This document shows, piece by piece, positions 1 through 27,268 of a stretch of 64,000 nt of DNA (its first letter is position 1; each line of letters opens with the position of its first letter). The notes beneath the pieces were generated by a model. The model was not told where the DNA came from. It ran no database searches and was given only the letters and a program-made list of their open reading frames with translations. A program made the translations under genes and the position numbers. The stretch lies in assembly GCA_030431635.1 (NCBI GenBank), contig JAUIIL010000003.1, positions 372,001 to 436,000 of the forward strand, in the 5' to 3' direction. This DNA comes from Bacteriovoracia bacterium. Lineage in GTDB: Bacteria; Bdellovibrionota; Bacteriovoracia; Bacteriovoracales; Bacteriovoracaceae.

Positions 1-2514
1 GTTAAGAGTTGAAAGAGGTTTTTCTGATAAAAGATCTTGATGGGCCGAAGTATTTGTTTCAAGCGTTGAGAGGATTTCTTGTGAACGGTTAAGAATCTCT
101 CTAGGTAATCCCGCAAGTTCGGCCACGTGAATCCCAAAACTCTGAGTCGCTCCCTCTTTAATAAGAGTATAAAGAAACTGAACTTTCCCTTTATAGTTCA
201 CTGTTTTTACTGTGAGATTTTTGGCCGTGGGAAGTTTTTTTACGAGATCAATAAGTTCATGATAGTGAGTCGAAAAAAGGCAAATTGATTTGGTTTTTTC
301 ATTTAAGTACTCTACTAGAGCCCAAGCAATACTTAGTCCATCAAAAGTAGAAGTTCCTCGTCCGATTTCATCTAGAATAATGAGCGAGCGATCAGAAGCA
401 TGGCGAATAATTTCAGCTGTCTCAGACATCTCTACCATAAAAGTCGATTGCCCTTTTACGATATCGTCGCTGGCACCAAGACGGCTGAAAAGAAAATCAC
501 AAAGACCGAGTTTGGCTTCTTTGGCCGGAACAAAAGAGCCTACTTGGGCCAAAAATTGAATAATGGCCATCTCTCTCATAACTGTGGTCTTCCCGGCCAT
601 ATTGGGCCCAGTAATAAGACCAAAGAACTGAGATGAATCAAGCTGTAGGTTATGTGCGACGAACTGATCTTTGATATTGGCCTTAATGAGTGGATGCCAT
701 CCATTTTTAACATGAAGGATTTTTTTATCAAAAAGTTGAGGTCTGACAAAGTTTTCCTGGATGGCAATCCAAGCCATACTTTGAAAAGAATCAATCAGAG
801 CAATAGAGTTTGCACATTTAATAATATTGTCTTTAAGAGAAATAATTTTTTCGATGAGATCTTGGAATAAACTTTTTTCTAGCCGGTAGAGTTTGTCTTT
901 GGCCGAAATCATTTCCTTTTCAAACTCATCTAGCTCTTCTGTTGTGTATCTTTCGTTATTAACCAGAGTTTGTCGTCTCACAAAGTTTTTGGGAACTTTC
1001 TTCAAATGTGATTTCGAGACTTCAATAAAGTATCCCGCTACATTATTTGATTTGATACGAAGATTTGAGATCCCTGTCTTTTTTCTGTACTGAGTTTCTA
1101 GTTTTACGAGCTCTTCAACTGTATTTTGTGTTAAATTGGCAAGCCTATCGCGTTGTTTGCTGGCTCCTTCTTTAATAAGGTTACCTTTTTCTAAAGAAGC
1201 GCCTACAGTATCATTAATTGTCTTAGTGATAAGAAGTGAGAGGGATTTTAATTCTTCGAACTCACTCTTCTTCCAAGATGGAATAACAGCTTTAACGTTT
1301 TTACCAATATGAGTGTGAATCTCTAAAAAAGCATTTATGGCTTGGGCCAAATTAATGAGATCCCCTCCATTGGCTTTTTGGCTAGTTACTTTGGCCATAA
1401 CTCTATCTATATCTCTGATGTCCTGAAGAGTTTGCCTTAAGTTAGAAAGAACTTCTTGCTTAGAAATAAAAAAATCAATGAGAGCATATCTTTTTTCAAT
1501 CTCAGATAAACTTCTTAGCGGAGTGAGAAAAAGGCTTTTAAGTTTTCGAACCCCCATGGAAGTTTTAGTTTTATCAACAAAACCCAAAATAGAGTCACTA
1601 TAATTTTCACGATTTTTTGGAAATATCTCTAGTCCAACAAGGGTAGGATAAGTGATTTTTAAAGTTGTATCGGTATTAATAAGTTTAAAAGGCCTGATAT
1701 GAGCTAGACTTTCAATAGCTTGAGTAGAGCAAATATAGTAGGCCAATGCTCCAATAGGGCAGAGGAGAGCGGCACAGTTTTTTAATGTTTCATCTCTTTT
1801 AAAACCAGGAATAAGTTTTTCAATATAAAGAGAGGAGTACTTTGCTTCAAAGTAGTCTTGGGAGAGATTTGTTTTTAAGAGCGATATTTTACTAAAAAAA
1901 TCATTAACTCTTTCAAACTGATCCCATTGGCCAAGATAAGAAATAAACTCATGAGGAGAGTAGATTTGTATCATCTCGATGAGCTCTAATTCGCTTTGAA
2001 CTTTTTGTCCGAAAAATTCCCCCGTTGTGTAGTCAATGAAAACAAGATAGAAGTTCTCTTCATCGTAGAAGGCGCAACCCATAAATCTATTCTCATTTCT
2101 ACCCGTCTTTTCTAAATCAAAAGGCATTCCAGGACTTACAACTTGAGTAACAGCTCTTTTTACTATCCCTTTCGCTTCTTTTGGATCTTCAACTTGTTCG
2201 CAAATAGCGGCCTTCATCCCTTGAGAGGTAATTCTATCAATATAAGTGGTCGCTGCATGATGAGGAATACCGGCCATGGGAATGGGTGTCCCAGCTATCT
2301 TGCCTCTATGGGTGAGAGCTATATTGAGAACTGCTGAGGCGACTCTAGCGTCATCAAAAAAAAGCTCGTAGAAGTCACCCATGCGAAAAAGTAAGAGCGT
2401 ATCAGGGTATTGTTTTTTTATTTGGTAGTACTGCTCCATCATGGGAGTTAGTTTTCCACCATTATCAACGATGGCCTCTAGCTCTTGAAGTGTTGTCTTG
2501 AATTGTGCTTCCAT
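1..2514 (-). CDS. mutS: DNA mismatch repair protein MutS (C-terminal end beyond window)
   Basis: MutS recognises base mismatches and small loops and starts methyl-independent or MutL-dependent repair. Translating the minus strand from the ATG at 2514 gives the mismatch-binding N-terminus with the GDFYELF motif (the Phe-x-Glu that stacks on the mismatch), then connector, lever and clamp regions, and the ATPase with Walker A TGPNMAGKTT (around 578-610) and the LLDEIGRGT-type Walker B (read as ILDEIGRGTSTFDG). The frame stays open to base 1, so the extreme C-terminus is missing here. It is transcribed away from the lptC gene, with about 105 bases between the two starts. No frame break is visible over 838 codons. 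Identification is secure. Confidence 0.97.
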   Translation of the reverse strand, partial: MEAQFKTTLQELEAIVDNGGKLTPMMEQYYQIKKQYPDTLLLFRMGDFYELFFDDARVASAVLNIALTHRGKIAGTPIPMAGIPHHAATTYIDRITSQGMKAAICEQVEDPKEAKGIVKRAVTQVVSPGMPFDLEKTGRNENRFMGCAFYDEENFYLVFIDYTTGEFFGQKVQSELELIEMIQIYSPHEFISYLGQWDQFERVNDFFSKISLLKTNLSQDYFEAKYSSLYIEKLIPGFKRDETLKNCAALLCPIGALAYYICSTQAIESLAHIRPFKLINTDTTLKITYPTLVGLEIFPKNRENYSDSILGFVDKTKTSMGVRKLKSLFLTPLRSLSEIEKRYALIDFFISKQEVLSNLRQTLQDIRDIDRVMAKVTSQKANGGDLINLAQAINAFLEIHTHIGKNVKAVIPSWKKSEFEELKSLSLLITKTINDTVGASLEKGNLIKEGASKQRDRLANLTQNTVEELVKLETQYRKKTGISNLRIKSNNVAGYFIEVSKSHLKKVPKNFVRRQTLVNNERYTTEELDEFEKEMISAKDKLYRLEKSLFQDLIEKIISLKDNIIKCANSIALIDSFQSMAWIAIQENFVRPQLFDKKILHVKNGWHPLIKANIKDQFVAHNLQLDSSQFFGLITGPNMAGKTTVMREMAIIQFLAQVGSFVPAKEAKLGLCDFLFSRLGASDDIVKGQSTFMVEMSETAEIIRHASDRSLIILDEIGRGTSTFDGLSIAWALVEYLNEKTKSICLFSTHYHELIDLVKKLPTAKNLTVKTVNYKGKVQFLYTLIKEGATQSFGIHVAELAGLPREILNRSQEILSTLETNTSAHQDLLSEKPLSTLN

Positions 2515-2565
2515 AAAGTTTCAAGAGCCTAGCACGTCCAATGCTTATTAAAAACCCTTTTAATA

Positions 2566-2595
2566 TTGTTATCTTAGAGTTTAGTTCGGTATAAT
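2566..2595 (+). promoter_or_regulatory. Sigma-70-type promoter for the lptC-lptB-rpoN-hpf operon
   Basis: TTGTTA (2566-2571) and TATAAT (2590-2595) are separated by 18 bases, and lie just upstream of the TTG start at 2621. The -10 box is a perfect consensus. This is a sequence match only; no start site is known. Confidence 0.6.
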
Positions 2596-2620
2596 AATCA
2601 CTTGAAACGAGGAGTCGATT

Positions 2621-3622
2621 TTGATTCATATAAAATCTGTTTTGACGCTATGCCTTTTTGCCTTTATGTGTTCCATCACCTTCTTTTTTGCACTCTCTAC
2701 TCAGTTTGGAGGTGGAGAAATGAATGATGGAAAAGAAGCACCAGAGGAAGAAGCCAATAGCTATTTTGAGGAAGTGAATTATTACCTTTTTAATAATAAT
2801 AAAAAAGTTCTTCACTTAGATGCATCAAGTTTAATTACGGCCAGTTTAACGGATGAGGGAAATATTAGTTTTGAGACTCCTAGAGGTGAAGCCTTTGGTG
2901 AGGATGAAAGTGAAGTCATTTATTTTAGAGCTGATTCAGGAAATTATTTTAATTCGAAATCTTTAGTTCATTTAAAAGATGAGGTTCAGTTTAATTATGA
3001 TAAAGCAGAATTTGAGGCCAAGGTTGTAAAGTTCTGGCCTCAGAAAAGTTATTTTGCAGCATGGGGAGATGTGAAATCGCGCACCATTGATCCTACGACT
3101 CAGGATAAACTAGAAATAAACTCTCATGAAGTTCAAGGTTGGCCATCCAAAAAGGAATCCCTTTATAAAGGTGAGGTTCGAGGCAAAATTATCAAGAAAA
3201 GAGTTTATCAACAAGGAATTGAATTTGAGTCTGATACTCTCAAAGCTGATCTCCAAAACTCCCTTATTACCATGAATGGCAATATTTTAATGAAAAAACA
3301 GAGACTTACAGCTCAGTCAGGGAGGGCTGAAATTTTTCTAGAGAACTATAATAAAAAGCTCAAGTATTACGTTCTTTATGACGATATAAGAATTGAAGAA
3401 AAGCTAACGCTAAGGGATGGTCAACCTTTAGTAAGAAGAGCGTACTCTGAAACCCTAGAAGGGTTTCAGTCGCTCGGAAAAATTGTGTTATCTGGTGCAC
3501 CAAGAGTGATTCAAGGAGAGGATGTCATCAAGGGATATCAGATTACTTTAAGAGAGAATGTTGAGCTCGTTGAAGTTGATGATGCGAACTCAGTATTCCA
3601 ACTAAAGAAAGGAAAGCAGTAA
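2621..3622 (+). CDS. lptC: LptC/LptA-like lipopolysaccharide transport protein
   Basis: Likely a periplasmic component that carries lipopolysaccharide from the LptBFG pump toward the outer membrane. One N-terminal membrane segment (about residues 7-27) is followed by a long beta-rich region. The middle (about 60-200) reads like LptC; the last 50 residues, with SGAPRVIQGEDVIKGYQITL, read like the LptA/OstA repeat. At 333 residues it is much longer than typical LptC (about 190), which fits LptC and LptA domains in one chain. The start is TTG, chosen because GAGGAG-like bases at 2609-2613 sit at the right distance and the signal anchor begins there. lptB follows after one base. The Lpt assignment is firm from context; the fusion is an inference from length and the C-terminal motif. 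Confidence 0.8.
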   Translation: MIHIKSVLTLCLFAFMCSITFFFALSTQFGGGEMNDGKEAPEEEANSYFEEVNYYLFNNNKKVLHLDASSLITASLTDEGNISFETPRGEAFGEDESEVIYFRADSGNYFNSKSLVHLKDEVQFNYDKAEFEAKVVKFWPQKSYFAAWGDVKSRTIDPTTQDKLEINSHEVQGWPSKKESLYKGEVRGKIIKKRVYQQGIEFESDTLKADLQNSLITMNGNILMKKQRLTAQSGRAEIFLENYNKKLKYYVLYDDIRIEEKLTLRDGQPLVRRAYSETLEGFQSLGKIVLSGAPRVIQGEDVIKGYQITLRENVELVEVDDANSVFQLKKGKQ

Positions 3623-17021: not shown

Positions 17022-17127
17022 GAAGAATGAATCCCATTGATAAAATTTCAGTAACTTATTATAATTTTAAGTAGATTAGAGGGAGTGCCCTCATTGAGAT
17101 CAAAGAACCACTACCATGGAGGGAAAA

Positions 17128-18204
17128 GTGGATATCTTGTACTATTTTGAAAACTTCACACCAGAATTTTTATACATTGAGACCGCAGTCTTAATGATTC
17201 TTCTTACGACTTTGGTTTTTATCTGGTTGTATAACAAAAAAAGATACAACGCTCTTAAACACCAAATTCCCGCTGGAGTGGTTAAAAATTATCTCGATTC
17301 TATTATTCAAAACTCAAGTGCATTAAAGTCGTCATTATTCAGGGACAATTTAGATGCTTCAGGTTTGCCTTCGGTGATGCCTATTTCAAATCTTCCTGGA
17401 GGAGATTCTATTCAAGTAAGTTCTGCTGGCCCAGGTGATGACTCAGCCAGAAGAAATGCAGAACTAGCAGCTCTTCAGGCTCAACTGGCCGAGAAACTTC
17501 AAATTATTAAAGAGTTAGAATCAAGACTTTCAAATATGCCATCAGGAAATTCTGATGGAGGGGATACAAGTGCACTTGAAGCTCAACTTAAAGTTGCTAA
17601 TGATGAAATCGAAAGGCTTAAAAATTCAGGAGATTCTTCAGCTGCTGCTGCTGGAGGAGTTGATGAAGGTGTTCATAGTCAGGTTGTTAGCGAGAGGGAT
17701 GAACTGGCCGAGAAATTGAAAGAGTATGAAGTCATTGAAGATGACTTGGCTAATTTAAAAAGACTTAAACAAGAAAACGAACAATTGAAGAGATCTCTTG
17801 GTCAAGAAGGTGGAGAAACTCAAGAGCTTATTGCCGAAGCTCCTGAACCTGAAGATATGATTGAGCCAGAGCCTGAAGAGCCTGTAGGACTGATGGAAGA
17901 AGAATCTGAGTCAGTTGAAGAAGAGGTACTTGAAGCTGAACCAGAAGAACCTGTTTTAGAGGAAATCTCTGAGCCAGAGCCAGAAGCCGAAGAAGAGGTA
18001 CTTGAAGCTGAAGCGGAAGAACCTGTTTCAGAGGAAATCTCTGAGCCAGAAGTCGAAGAGGAAACTGTTGAAGCAGCTGCTGAAGAAGAGGAAGTTGCAC
18101 TGGATGCTCCTGACCCAGCTCCAGAACCGGTTGAAGCTGCTTCAGACGAAGATAAGAAAACTCCAGAAGATCTGCTTAGTGAATTTGAAAAAATGCTAGG
18201 CTAA
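17128..18204 (+). CDS. Membrane-anchored coiled-coil protein with acidic tandem repeats
   Basis: One N-terminal membrane helix (around TAVLMILLTTLVFIWLY) is followed by a short linker, coiled-coil segments (about 110-225, many Leu/Glu/Lys heptads) and a very acidic C-terminal third rich in Glu-Pro. A 72-base unit at 17917-17988 is repeated at 17989-18060, giving two near-identical 24-residue copies. GTG at 17128 is preferred over ATG 17116 because GGAGGG (17118-17123) stands at the correct distance before it. I do not recognise a family; it could act as a cell-envelope scaffold or ruler. It shares orientation with the HEAT-repeat gene 14 bases downstream. Confidence 0.85.
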   Translation: MDILYYFENFTPEFLYIETAVLMILLTTLVFIWLYNKKRYNALKHQIPAGVVKNYLDSIIQNSSALKSSLFRDNLDASGLPSVMPISNLPGGDSIQVSSAGPGDDSARRNAELAALQAQLAEKLQIIKELESRLSNMPSGNSDGGDTSALEAQLKVANDEIERLKNSGDSSAAAAGGVDEGVHSQVVSERDELAEKLKEYEVIEDDLANLKRLKQENEQLKRSLGQEGGETQELIAEAPEPEDMIEPEPEEPVGLMEEESESVEEEVLEAEPEEPVLEEISEPEPEAEEEVLEAEAEEPVSEEISEPEVEEETVEAAAEEEEVALDAPDPAPEPVEAASDEDKKTPEDLLSEFEKMLG

Positions 18205-24862: not shown

Positions 24863-25616
24863 TAGAAGAAATTCAAGAAGTTTAAGGTTTGAATCTCATT
24901 CAGATGAGAGCTGGGCCGTAAGTTACGTTGACTTACTAACTTTACTTTTATGTTTTTTTATTATTTTTTTCAGTTTAGAAAAAAATGAAAACAGGATGGA
25001 GAAGAAAAAATACCTTTCTATGCTTGTTGATGGATTACAACCCACCAAAGAACAACAGTTATCTCCTCGCTCAAACAAAAATGAACCTAGTAATAAAGAA
25101 ACAGCTAGACAAAATAATTCCACCGAAGCCTCTCGTGAAGTTGCGAGTATTAAACCAGCAACATCTAAAACTTTTGAAGCTGTTATTTCAAAAGTGATTT
25201 CTGACCAAAATGGAAAAAGTCAAACGCGTTTAGAAGAAGAACATTTATTTATTGAATTTGAGAAAGTCTCTTTTTTTGGAACTGGTCAAAAGAATTTAAA
25301 TTCAGATGGTCTTGAAACAGTAGAGAGAGTTATTTCCTATTTAAGACCCTTCAAGGATAAAGTGAAGATTACAGTACAAGGGCATACGGACCCAACTGGT
25401 TACGTCATAAGAAAAGATACAAGTAACTGGGAGCTTAGTGTTTTGAGAGCAACGAGTGTTCTTAAACTATTTGTTAAAAATGGTTTTGAACAAAAGTATC
25501 TTTCGGCGGAAGGATTTTCTTCACACAAGTCATCAATCGATCAAAGAATTATTAAAAGTAGACAGTATAAGTATCTAAGAAGAGTTACATTTAAGATCGA
25601 GGAATTAAAAAAATGA
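24849..25616 (+). CDS. motB: MotB-like stator protein with OmpA peptidoglycan-binding domain
   Basis: The MotB partner: a basic N-terminus, then a single membrane helix starting SYVDLLTLLLCFFIIFFSL in which Asp28 occupies the proton-binding position. A charged linker (about 50-115) is followed by an OmpA-like domain with VQGHTDPTG (about 178) and NWELSVLRATSVLKLF, whose Asp and Arg normally grip peptidoglycan. The 255-residue protein is normal for MotB. It ends with an ATGA overlap onto the FliF-FliG-like gene, so stator and rotor candidates are made from one mRNA. Confidence 0.92.
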   Translation: MKRVSRRNSRSLRFESHSDESWAVSYVDLLTLLLCFFIIFFSLEKNENRMEKKKYLSMLVDGLQPTKEQQLSPRSNKNEPSNKETARQNNSTEASREVASIKPATSKTFEAVISKVISDQNGKSQTRLEEEHLFIEFEKVSFFGTGQKNLNSDGLETVERVISYLRPFKDKVKITVQGHTDPTGYVIRKDTSNWELSVLRATSVLKLFVKNGFEQKYLSAEGFSSHKSSIDQRIIKSRQYKYLRRVTFKIEELKK

Positions 25617-27268
25617 AAGCGTTGTTATTTTTACTCTTAAATTTTACCTCTCTTTGGGCAAGTAGTTTTGTTGCTCTTGAACTTGAGCATCATGTACAAA
25701 AAAAGGCTTCTGAAGCCATTTCTCAAGTCTTACCTCAGGGAAGGTTTACTGTTAGTACAAGAGTTTTTGTTAAAAAAGGTGCTGCTAAAATATTTGAGAA
25801 AAAACAGGTCGATGTCAGACTACCTTTAAGTGGAAGAGTAATAAGTGTTGAGAAAAACCAAGACCAAAACTTTAGTATTGATAAGTTTTATCCCTACATT
25901 AAATCTGTTGAAATTAGTGTTGGAATTCCTGAGCATACCTCAAGAGATGTCAAAAAATATCTCTTGAGTTTTATTAAGCACAGTGTAGGGTTTGAGAAAA
26001 AAAGAGGAGATAAAATTACATTTCATAAACTTCCACGTGAGTTGGCCTACAGTTGGAATGTTGAAGAACTTCCTGATTTTTTGAAAGAGTCACCTCTTTT
26101 GTATTATTTGCAATCTAAATGGGGGTCAAAACTTGCAAATATTTTTCTTATTCTTGTTGGATTAATTGGTCTTGCGGTTATTGTTTTTTGGTCTGTTAGA
26201 GCAATGAAAAAGGTATTTGAAGGAATTGCTTCAACGTTGTCAGAAAAAGAAGGTGAGGTGACTTTTTCTAGTAATGTCCCTGCTTCATCTCAGAAAATAG
26301 AACCAAATAATTTTAATTCTTCTATCGCGATGAATCAGTTAACTGGAGGTCAATCTCTTTTTGATAATGCTCCGATTGAAGTCCTCAAACTTTTTTGTAT
26401 TGATTGCCAATACCGTAGAACTTATAAAGTGGCCCCGGTAATGCTTTGTTACAAAGTTTTAAACGAAAAGAAAGCATCAGAATTGAGAAAAAAATTGCCA
26501 GAAGTTTATTTTGAAATGGACAGCAGTTTTGAAATAAGTGAACAAGAACTATTTCATGTATTTGAAACTTATTATTATGAATACAGACAATTTAATGAAA
26601 ATGAACTCTCTCGAAAATTGATGTACTATAAACCAGAGCAAGTAAAAAGTTTCTTGAACGAATTTTTTGAAAATGGAGAAATCGATGAAATTCTTGTTTG
26701 CTTGAAAAACTTATTACCACAACAAAAAGCTGAATTTCTTTTATTATTAAATGCCAAAGAAAAAATTCAGCTTTTTCAGAGGCACACTCATCAACCAATG
26801 GATAAAACAAAATATCAGAGTATCTTTGGAGAAGTGGCCATCAGTACTCCACCTATGGTGCATAACTTACCAACAAATCATAGTGTCTTTGCTTTTATTG
26901 AAAAAGACCTCACTCCTCAGAGTTTTGAGGAAGACGAACTATTCTTTGAAAACAAAATTAAAGGACATAGAAGTATTCTAAGTTTAATTGACTCCTTTTC
27001 TCAAGATGACTGGGCGAGAATTCCTTTAAAAATAGTTGCATTAGGATTTTTTGGCTATTCAGATAATGTGAAAGATAGCGTAAAATTAAATTATTCAGAA
27101 AAAAGACTTGAGTGGCTTGAAGAATCAATTCATCAAGCTTTAAAGCTTGAGTTGAACTTTCTATCTTATGATGTTGTAGAAGCAAGAAACAAGTTATTGG
27201 AGTATGTAAAAAAAGATGAAGCAAGTAATGAAGAAGAATTACCGTCTCTATTTAATAAAGCTTCTTAG
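25613..27268 (+). CDS. Natural FliF-FliG-like fusion protein (candidate rotor)
   Basis: A 551-residue protein with a signal peptide (about 1-16), a periplasmic domain (about 20-160), one membrane helix (about 175-195) and a large cytoplasmic part. The periplasmic part resembles the last ring-building motif (RBM3) of the flagellar MS-ring protein FliF: LELEHHVQKKASEAISQVLP and, at 124-141, SVGFEKKRGDKITFHKLP. FliF RBM1 and RBM2 are absent. The cytoplasmic part has three helical blocks; the last (about 440-535) follows FliG_C, with NYSEKRLEWLEESI aligning to the conserved NMSxRAA segment. The Asp-Asp-Arg charge pattern of FliG's torque helix looks altered. Similarity is by eye and needs profile tests, but the neighbours MotA and MotB make it a strong idea. 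Confidence 0.7.
   Translation: MKALLFLLLNFTSLWASSFVALELEHHVQKKASEAISQVLPQGRFTVSTRVFVKKGAAKIFEKKQVDVRLPLSGRVISVEKNQDQNFSIDKFYPYIKSVEISVGIPEHTSRDVKKYLLSFIKHSVGFEKKRGDKITFHKLPRELAYSWNVEELPDFLKESPLLYYLQSKWGSKLANIFLILVGLIGLAVIVFWSVRAMKKVFEGIASTLSEKEGEVTFSSNVPASSQKIEPNNFNSSIAMNQLTGGQSLFDNAPIEVLKLFCIDCQYRRTYKVAPVMLCYKVLNEKKASELRKKLPEVYFEMDSSFEISEQELFHVFETYYYEYRQFNENELSRKLMYYKPEQVKSFLNEFFENGEIDEILVCLKNLLPQQKAEFLLLLNAKEKIQLFQRHTHQPMDKTKYQSIFGEVAISTPPMVHNLPTNHSVFAFIEKDLTPQSFEEDELFFENKIKGHRSILSLIDSFSQDDWARIPLKIVALGFFGYSDNVKDSVKLNYSEKRLEWLEESIHQALKLELNFLSYDVVEARNKLLEYVKKDEASNEEELPSLFNKAS

Follow-up and report, generated by a model that had tools for sequence, protein, structure and literature searches.

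A natural FliF-FliG fusion with an RBM3-only periplasmic part and adjoining motAB genes in a Bacteriovoracia bacterium, the probable rotor of a small non-flagellar motor

Introduction

The flagellar motor is usually studied within a machine that also secretes. Engineered FliF-FliG fusions exist in Salmonella and Vibrio, as passages of PMC6079021 and PMC11481574 describe. The FliG torque helix is described as negatively charged in a portion of PMC11087270, and the contact pairs reported in an excerpt of PMC12505986 are MotA R90 with D288/D289 and MotA E98 with R281. For Bdellovibrio, sections of PMC11323537 describe three motAB pairs and a shift of motA3 mutants to prey-independent growth, and a section of PMC3539863 describes two FliG copies; for Bdellovibrio bacteriovorus, the title of Morehouse 2011, a paper cited by PMC12827227 and PMC11323537, reports that all three MotAB pairs serve one flagellum. 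In a literature search that lay mostly outside subscription papers, we met with no account of a FliF-FliG fusion that occurs naturally and has its own stator. Here we analyse a locus of a Bacteriovoracia bacterium in which such a fusion is encoded between stator genes and an outer-membrane barrel gene.

Results

The window analysed is a stretch of 64,000 nucleotides (assembly GCA_030431635.1, contig JAUIIL010000003.1, positions 372,001 to 436,000), in which five overlapping genes stand in the order PEGA/TPR protein, MotA, MotB, fusion and outer-membrane barrel (Table 1). The fusion gene, fourth of the five, terminates in a stop codon, has exactly the coordinates assigned to it by an earlier sequence-only reading of the window, and is present as a single copy in its own genome. 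According to that reading it is a natural FliF-FliG fusion in which RBM3 is the only FliF domain of the periplasmic part, a signal peptide replaces RBM1 and RBM2, and a single transmembrane helix leads to a FliG-like cytoplasmic part. Hydropathy agreed, with one segment at the N terminus and one strong segment after the periplasmic domain, and the motif VGFEKKRGD lies near residues 125-133.

Table 1. Position of the five operon genes, and of the parts of the fusion protein, in the window
Feature	Position	Strand	Basis
Gene 1, exported protein with PEGA and TPR-like parts, 193 aa	23553..24134	+	Pfam
Gene 2, MotA-type stator subunit, 243 aa	24131..24862	+	Pfam MotA_ExbB 3.6e-20
Gene 3, MotB-type stator subunit, 255 aa	24849..25616	+	Pfam MotB_plug 1.7e-9, OmpA 1.9e-12
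Gene 4, FliF RBM3 - TM - FliG fusion, 551 aa	25613..27268	+	ORF, hhalign, Foldseek, VIA, PDB profile
Signal-peptide-like N terminus, residues 1-17	25613..25663	+	hydropathy peak 3-22
RBM3-type periplasmic domain, residues 18-143, without FliF beta-collar insertion	25664..26041	+	VIA
Single transmembrane helix, residues 170-199	26120..26209	+	hydropathy 2.89
Helical region, residues 245-325, possibly FliG_N-like	26345..26587	+	helices in AlphaFold model
FliG middle and C-terminal-like region, residues 329-540	26597..27232	+	VIA, PDB profile
Torque-helix equivalent, residues 495-510	27095..27142	+	hhalign and family alignments
Gene 5, 8-stranded outer-membrane beta-barrel, 204 aa	27216..27830	+	AlphaFold, Foldseek

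Submitted as a single sequence, the fusion returned nothing usable from Pfam, NCBIfam, PADLOC or the PDB. Pfam FliG_C at its curated cut-off gave 0 families for the window protein, and it reached only E 0.99 in one of ten close members. With Pfam, NCBIfam and the single-sequence PDB search blank, the claim called for profiles and structure. The ten close members, which we term type A, were aligned as profile A2 and compared with 177,635 PDB sequences, which produced seven matches at E <= 10, all of them FliG or FliF: six were FliG (best 3e-5, profile positions 362-559) and the seventh was FliF (E 1.8, profile 125-212 on FliF 425-498). A7, a profile of 14 broader members, matched FliG in the PDB at 3.7e-24. 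When A2 was run across the fusion's own genome, the next-best match fell inside canonical FliF (E 0.022).

Profile-profile comparison, one of the checks proposed in the sequence-only reading, placed both halves above all shuffled controls. Using hhalign, A2 scored 53.3 against canonical FliF (82%; columns 30-218 on 249-487, from RBM3 to TM2), with a maximum of 21.5 for 60 column-shuffled FliF alignments, and 35.6 against canonical FliG at a probability of only 19% (columns 353-563 on 132-349), with a maximum of 25.0 for 60 shuffled FliG alignments; the FliF-versus-FliG control gave 0.2%. The PDB profile search is thus the stronger FliG evidence for type A. Type B, the proteins of 560-660 aa with the same layout as type A that make up most of the weaker A2 matches examined, aligned with A2 at 98.9% over 508 columns and with FliG at 97.8%.

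A monomer model of the fusion was built with AlphaFold from five of the ten type A sequences (the window protein and L112-L115), with a mean pLDDT of 66, a pTM of 0.43 and low confidence at the signal-peptide-like segment. Foldseek searches with this model returned FliG or FliF at every rank from 1 to 30, the first unrelated entry standing at rank 31, with a best E of 2.6e-3 and none passing 0.001. In VIA alignments the RBM3 part (model 10-143) superposed on FliF 8z5v_A with Z 12.2 (2.1 A, 98 residues) and model residues 454-540 on MotAB-bound FliG_C 8ucs_H with Z 9.1 (2.6 A, 83 residues), so that the predicted structure holds both an RBM-type fold and an ARM-like FliG domain. Alignment to FliG 103-320 gave Z 10.1 over 168 residues, with an rmsd of 16.1 across both domains; as two-domain FliG alignments ranged from 8 to 18 A, the inter-domain pose of the model is unreliable. 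OsmC/Ohr proteins came next for the RBM part at Z 8-9, and the RBM3 fold is therefore partly common to other proteins. Model residues 9-143 matched FliF 227-438 (6scn_K), which leaves about 75 FliF residues without a counterpart in the fusion; we take these to be the beta-collar insertion. The VIA alignments to FliG, among those listed, start at residue 322 or beyond, past the helical region at 245-325. By homology, then, the description of a natural FliF-FliG fusion was right, and it is near certain that the protein consists of an RBM3 domain, a transmembrane helix and a FliG_M/C-like region.

Among 59 relatives searched with the fusion itself, G057 had a homologue, and in G055 a genuine FliF matched weakly (E 0.003) at window-protein residues 108-245, the RBM3 end and transmembrane region. 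A two-row profile matched in 12 of the 368 genomes of the phylum and A2 in 63, of which ten were type A at E < 1e-150; the remaining matches were weaker and lay mostly in the first 150-250 profile positions. Type A members are 18-23% identical to the window protein. FliG_C exceeded its Pfam cut-off in the type B proteins of L045, L048, L050, L053, L057 and L059, and also in L034; no FliG model matched in L061 or L063. At 1e-5, A7 matched in 233 of 368 genomes, many of these matches being canonical FliG. Among the matches listed, a single match ran across both the RBM and FliG parts in at least about 72 genomes, and with seven type-A-only genomes the family is present in at least about 79 of 368. 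Broader relatives carrying FliG_M and FliG_C, many above the Pfam cut-offs, were found throughout the phylum. A genome-wide pattern scan returned only four loci, and viral contigs contained no relative of the fusion. Of the two FliG copies reported for Bdellovibrio, the second may belong to the type B fusions.

We also noted several further FliG-like or fusion-associated proteins. Directly upstream of type B fusions lies a companion protein of 325-411 aa (L147 8348-9325, L034 7850-9022, L046 2262-3497) whose match to the type B profile falls in the RBM part of that profile; in the L046 case it has FliG matches below the Pfam cut-off, and the companion may form a second ring. A protein of 799 aa in L006 (3545-5944, minus strand), which combines FliG_M/FliG_C (2.6e-15) with an extended N-terminal part, has its own motA and motB (2268-3053 and 1351-2271) and lies close to the G057 type A operon. 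The fusion's own genome encodes, on C2 and C17, two free-standing FliG_C-like proteins (L149 6955-7383, plus strand, 142 aa; L150 6588-7022, minus strand, 144 aa) with no labelled motor gene alongside, and similar open frames of 130-180 aa occur in most of 19 family members searched. A 366 aa protein (L152 7283-8383, minus strand; FliG profile 2.8e-7) likewise has no motor gene labelled nearby, and open frames of 369-372 aa resembling it were seen in G009, G012 and G016.

EHPQ is the FliM-binding motif of FliG. This motif (an EHPQR motif of FliG_M is named in a passage of PMC6290876) was present in 32 of 33 canonical FliG sequences and in none of the 19 type B or 10 type A fusions that we aligned. 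The sequence-only reading had given the fusion its own switch; with EHPQ missing from all 29 fusions this is unsupported and we dropped it, the fusion keeping the fold of the middle and C-terminal FliG domains and a single charge of the torque helix. The same reading had suggested that the torque-helix charges are changed, and the alignment of these 62 sequences bore this out. The R281 position is basic in 33/33 canonical FliG, 18/19 type B and 9/10 type A sequences, and the D289 position is acidic in 33/33, 17/19 and 0/10, respectively. An acidic residue occupies the D288 position in 32/33 canonical, 0/19 type B and 1/10 type A sequences, K264 is kept in 33/33, 0/19 and 0/10, and the R297 position is basic in 33/33, 0/19 and 1/10. 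The acidic face of the torque helix is lost in type A. In the window protein the R281 equivalent of E. coli FliG, K497 in the alignment, is the only torque-helix charge kept; hhalign places E504/S505 at D288/D289, in a register that is uncertain beyond K497. With the D288/D289, K264 and R297 equivalents gone in nearly all type A members, contact with MotA would differ from the known one and could be absent.

The dedicated MotA and MotB genes upstream and the barrel gene downstream, which the sequence-only reading had missed, make the case for a motor. Gene 2 matched the NCBIfam flagellar motor protein model at 1.2e-24 versus 2e-4 for TolQ and keeps P173 and P222; gene 3 combines a plug/TM motif with an OmpA-type peptidoglycan-binding domain, and the proton-site Asp (equivalent to E. 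coli MotB D32) was kept in 11 of 11 MotB sequences tested. The pair thus carries the features of a flagellar-type stator: the MotA_ExbB and MotB plug/OmpA matches, the MotB Asp and a better match to flagellar than to Tol/Exb proteins. At the MotA R90 position, six of seven close MotA sequences have R or K, and the E98 column lies inside a gap. In a MotA tree the type A and type B operon sequences group together (support 0.95), as do those of type A by themselves (0.996), apart from E. coli MotA and from the canonical flagellar MotA sequences of this phylum; support is weak (0.17, 0.39) at the deeper nodes, where canonical and E. coli MotA join. Zorya ZorAB was considered and rejected, the MotB-ZorB match being weak (3.6e-12) and no ZorA being found for MotA at E <= 0.01; other Zorya models had no match among the five operon genes.

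Gene 1 matched Pfam PEGA (0.0019) and TPR_19 (3.4e-4), both under the curated cut-off. It overlaps gene 2 by 4 bases, and its homologue opens the operon in seven loci. No lipobox was found in gene 1 of seven close members, and one is present in the counterparts of three broader relatives tested. The AlphaFold model of the gene 5 product has eight long strands (pLDDT 79), with Ail, OmpA and NspA as top Foldseek matches (E 4e-7), and a barrel homologue adjoins the fusion in 10/10 close loci. The barrel and its homologues have an invariant Tyr-Cys with a second Cys four residues on, a pair that, judging from sequence, could perhaps form a disulfide.

All five genes are adjacent in the window, L006, L024, L025, L026, L027 and L028 (7/10 close loci), and all four junctions overlap in each of these seven intact loci if upstream-most starts are assumed. 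The operon is interrupted by contig ends in L030 and L031, and L029 has the fusion and barrel only. A fusion and barrel lacking adjacent motAB occur in one close genome (G102), where a MotA of the same clade is encoded on another contig. Among broader relatives, G080 has the same five genes, and G157 and G322 have motA, motB, a PEGA protein and the fusion in other arrangements that include an additional companion protein. The genes flanking the operon show no consistent conservation, although matches between some loci were seen for a kinase, an ABC protein and a few further pairs. Elsewhere in the window (17116-18204) lies a gene for a protein of 362 aa whose N-terminal part contains a hydrophobic stretch and whose tail is a long, acidic repeat rich in Glu and Pro.

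Discussion

The presence of both halves of the rotor fold and of a stator in the operon, together with the loss of the FliM, collar and RBM1/RBM2 features, points to a separate small rotary motor with an output to the envelope. We infer its rotation and function, and consider that the fusion probably serves as rotor subunit in a small rotary motor of MotAB type that is not part of a flagellum. The PDB profile matches, Foldseek ranks, superpositions, hhalign shuffles, kept gene order, MotA clade and MotB Asp argue for this motor; the loss of torque-helix charges, the G102 fusion without motAB, the patchy distribution of type A (10/368 genomes) and the Bdellovibrio pairs argue against it. The unusually small MS ring envisaged in the sequence-only reading, with the fusion as its putative subunit, is plausible. 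In the proposed mechanism, RBM3 domains would oligomerise into a ring at the periplasmic face of the inner membrane, and the covalent fusion would replace the FliF_C-FliG_N contact of the flagellum. MotB would be anchored to peptidoglycan via its OmpA domain, MotA would turn on MotB and push the FliG_C-like domains, and the ring would rotate. As RBM1, RBM2, the beta-collar, rod, export gate and FliM motif are missing, the ring would carry no filament and would probably lack a direction switch; its torque would reach the envelope via the PEGA/TPR protein and the barrel.

The main alternative is an auxiliary flagellar rotor, in which the fusion would be added to the canonical MS/C ring, or encircle it, so that this MotAB could act as an extra stator type on the one flagellum. 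We regard this as unlikely, even though the genome contains canonical fliF and fliG side by side and the Bdellovibrio publications, in the passages given above, treat all three MotAB pairs as flagellar. The fusion operon contains no further flagellar genes and lies a long way from fliFG (C3:397613 versus C3:113696), its MotA clade is separate, and EHPQ is missing. It also conserves an outer-membrane barrel and a PEGA/TPR partner, which to our knowledge are no known flagellar parts. Given the canonical fliF and fliG, the organism need not swim by means of the fusion.

The barrel and PEGA/TPR partners also recall envelope-spanning machines, and together with the altered torque-helix charges they could fit a non-rotary force transducer, in which MotAB and the fusion would act like Tol/Ton or Agl-type gliding motors, with the fusion as a lever and no ring. 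This seems distinctly improbable, since a ring-forming fold and the FliG_C fold, both halves of the flagellar rotor, are kept, and MotA and MotB match flagellar stators far better than TolQ/ExbB. That the fusion is a decayed second-flagellum remnant, or a scaffold or regulator without a motor role, as its divergence, charge loss and want of a Pfam match might suggest, is very improbable in view of the open frames, fixed order and overlapping genes maintained despite 18-23% identity to the window protein, and of the MotB Asp kept throughout.

There is about an even chance that the small rotary motor proposed here belongs to a family of ion-driven rotor-stator motors that have no export apparatus or filament, are encoded in self-contained operons and are widespread in one phylum. 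If so, it would be a living model of the flagellar motor uncoupled from secretion. A one-piece rotor that occurs in nature with its own MotAB would permit tests of torque, ring assembly and minimal rotor charges that run without rod, hook or export gate, and would bear on whether the flagellar motor and secretion modules have separate histories. It would also put a name to a new envelope machine in a phylum with predatory members.

Compared with known systems, the fusion resembles FliF in its RBM3 fold, RGD-type ending and the transmembrane helix that follows, but lacks RBM1, RBM2, the first transmembrane helix and the beta-collar, and has a FliG-like part instead of FliF_C; with 551 aa, one strong transmembrane helix and no Pfam FliF match, it was not filed as FliF. 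Colinear FliG_M and FliG_C folds extend to its C terminus as in FliG, from which it differs in being membrane-anchored, in lacking EHPQ and in keeping R281 as its only torque-helix charge. The stator resembles MotAB/PomAB in its MotA prolines, MotB plug and Asp, and OmpA domain, but the operon MotA forms its own clade and the genes are coupled to the fusion. The engineered FliF-FliG fusions, as far as the passages cited describe them, likewise unite ring and rotor in one chain, but were made in the laboratory from flagellar proteins, whereas the present protein is natural and carries RBM3 only.
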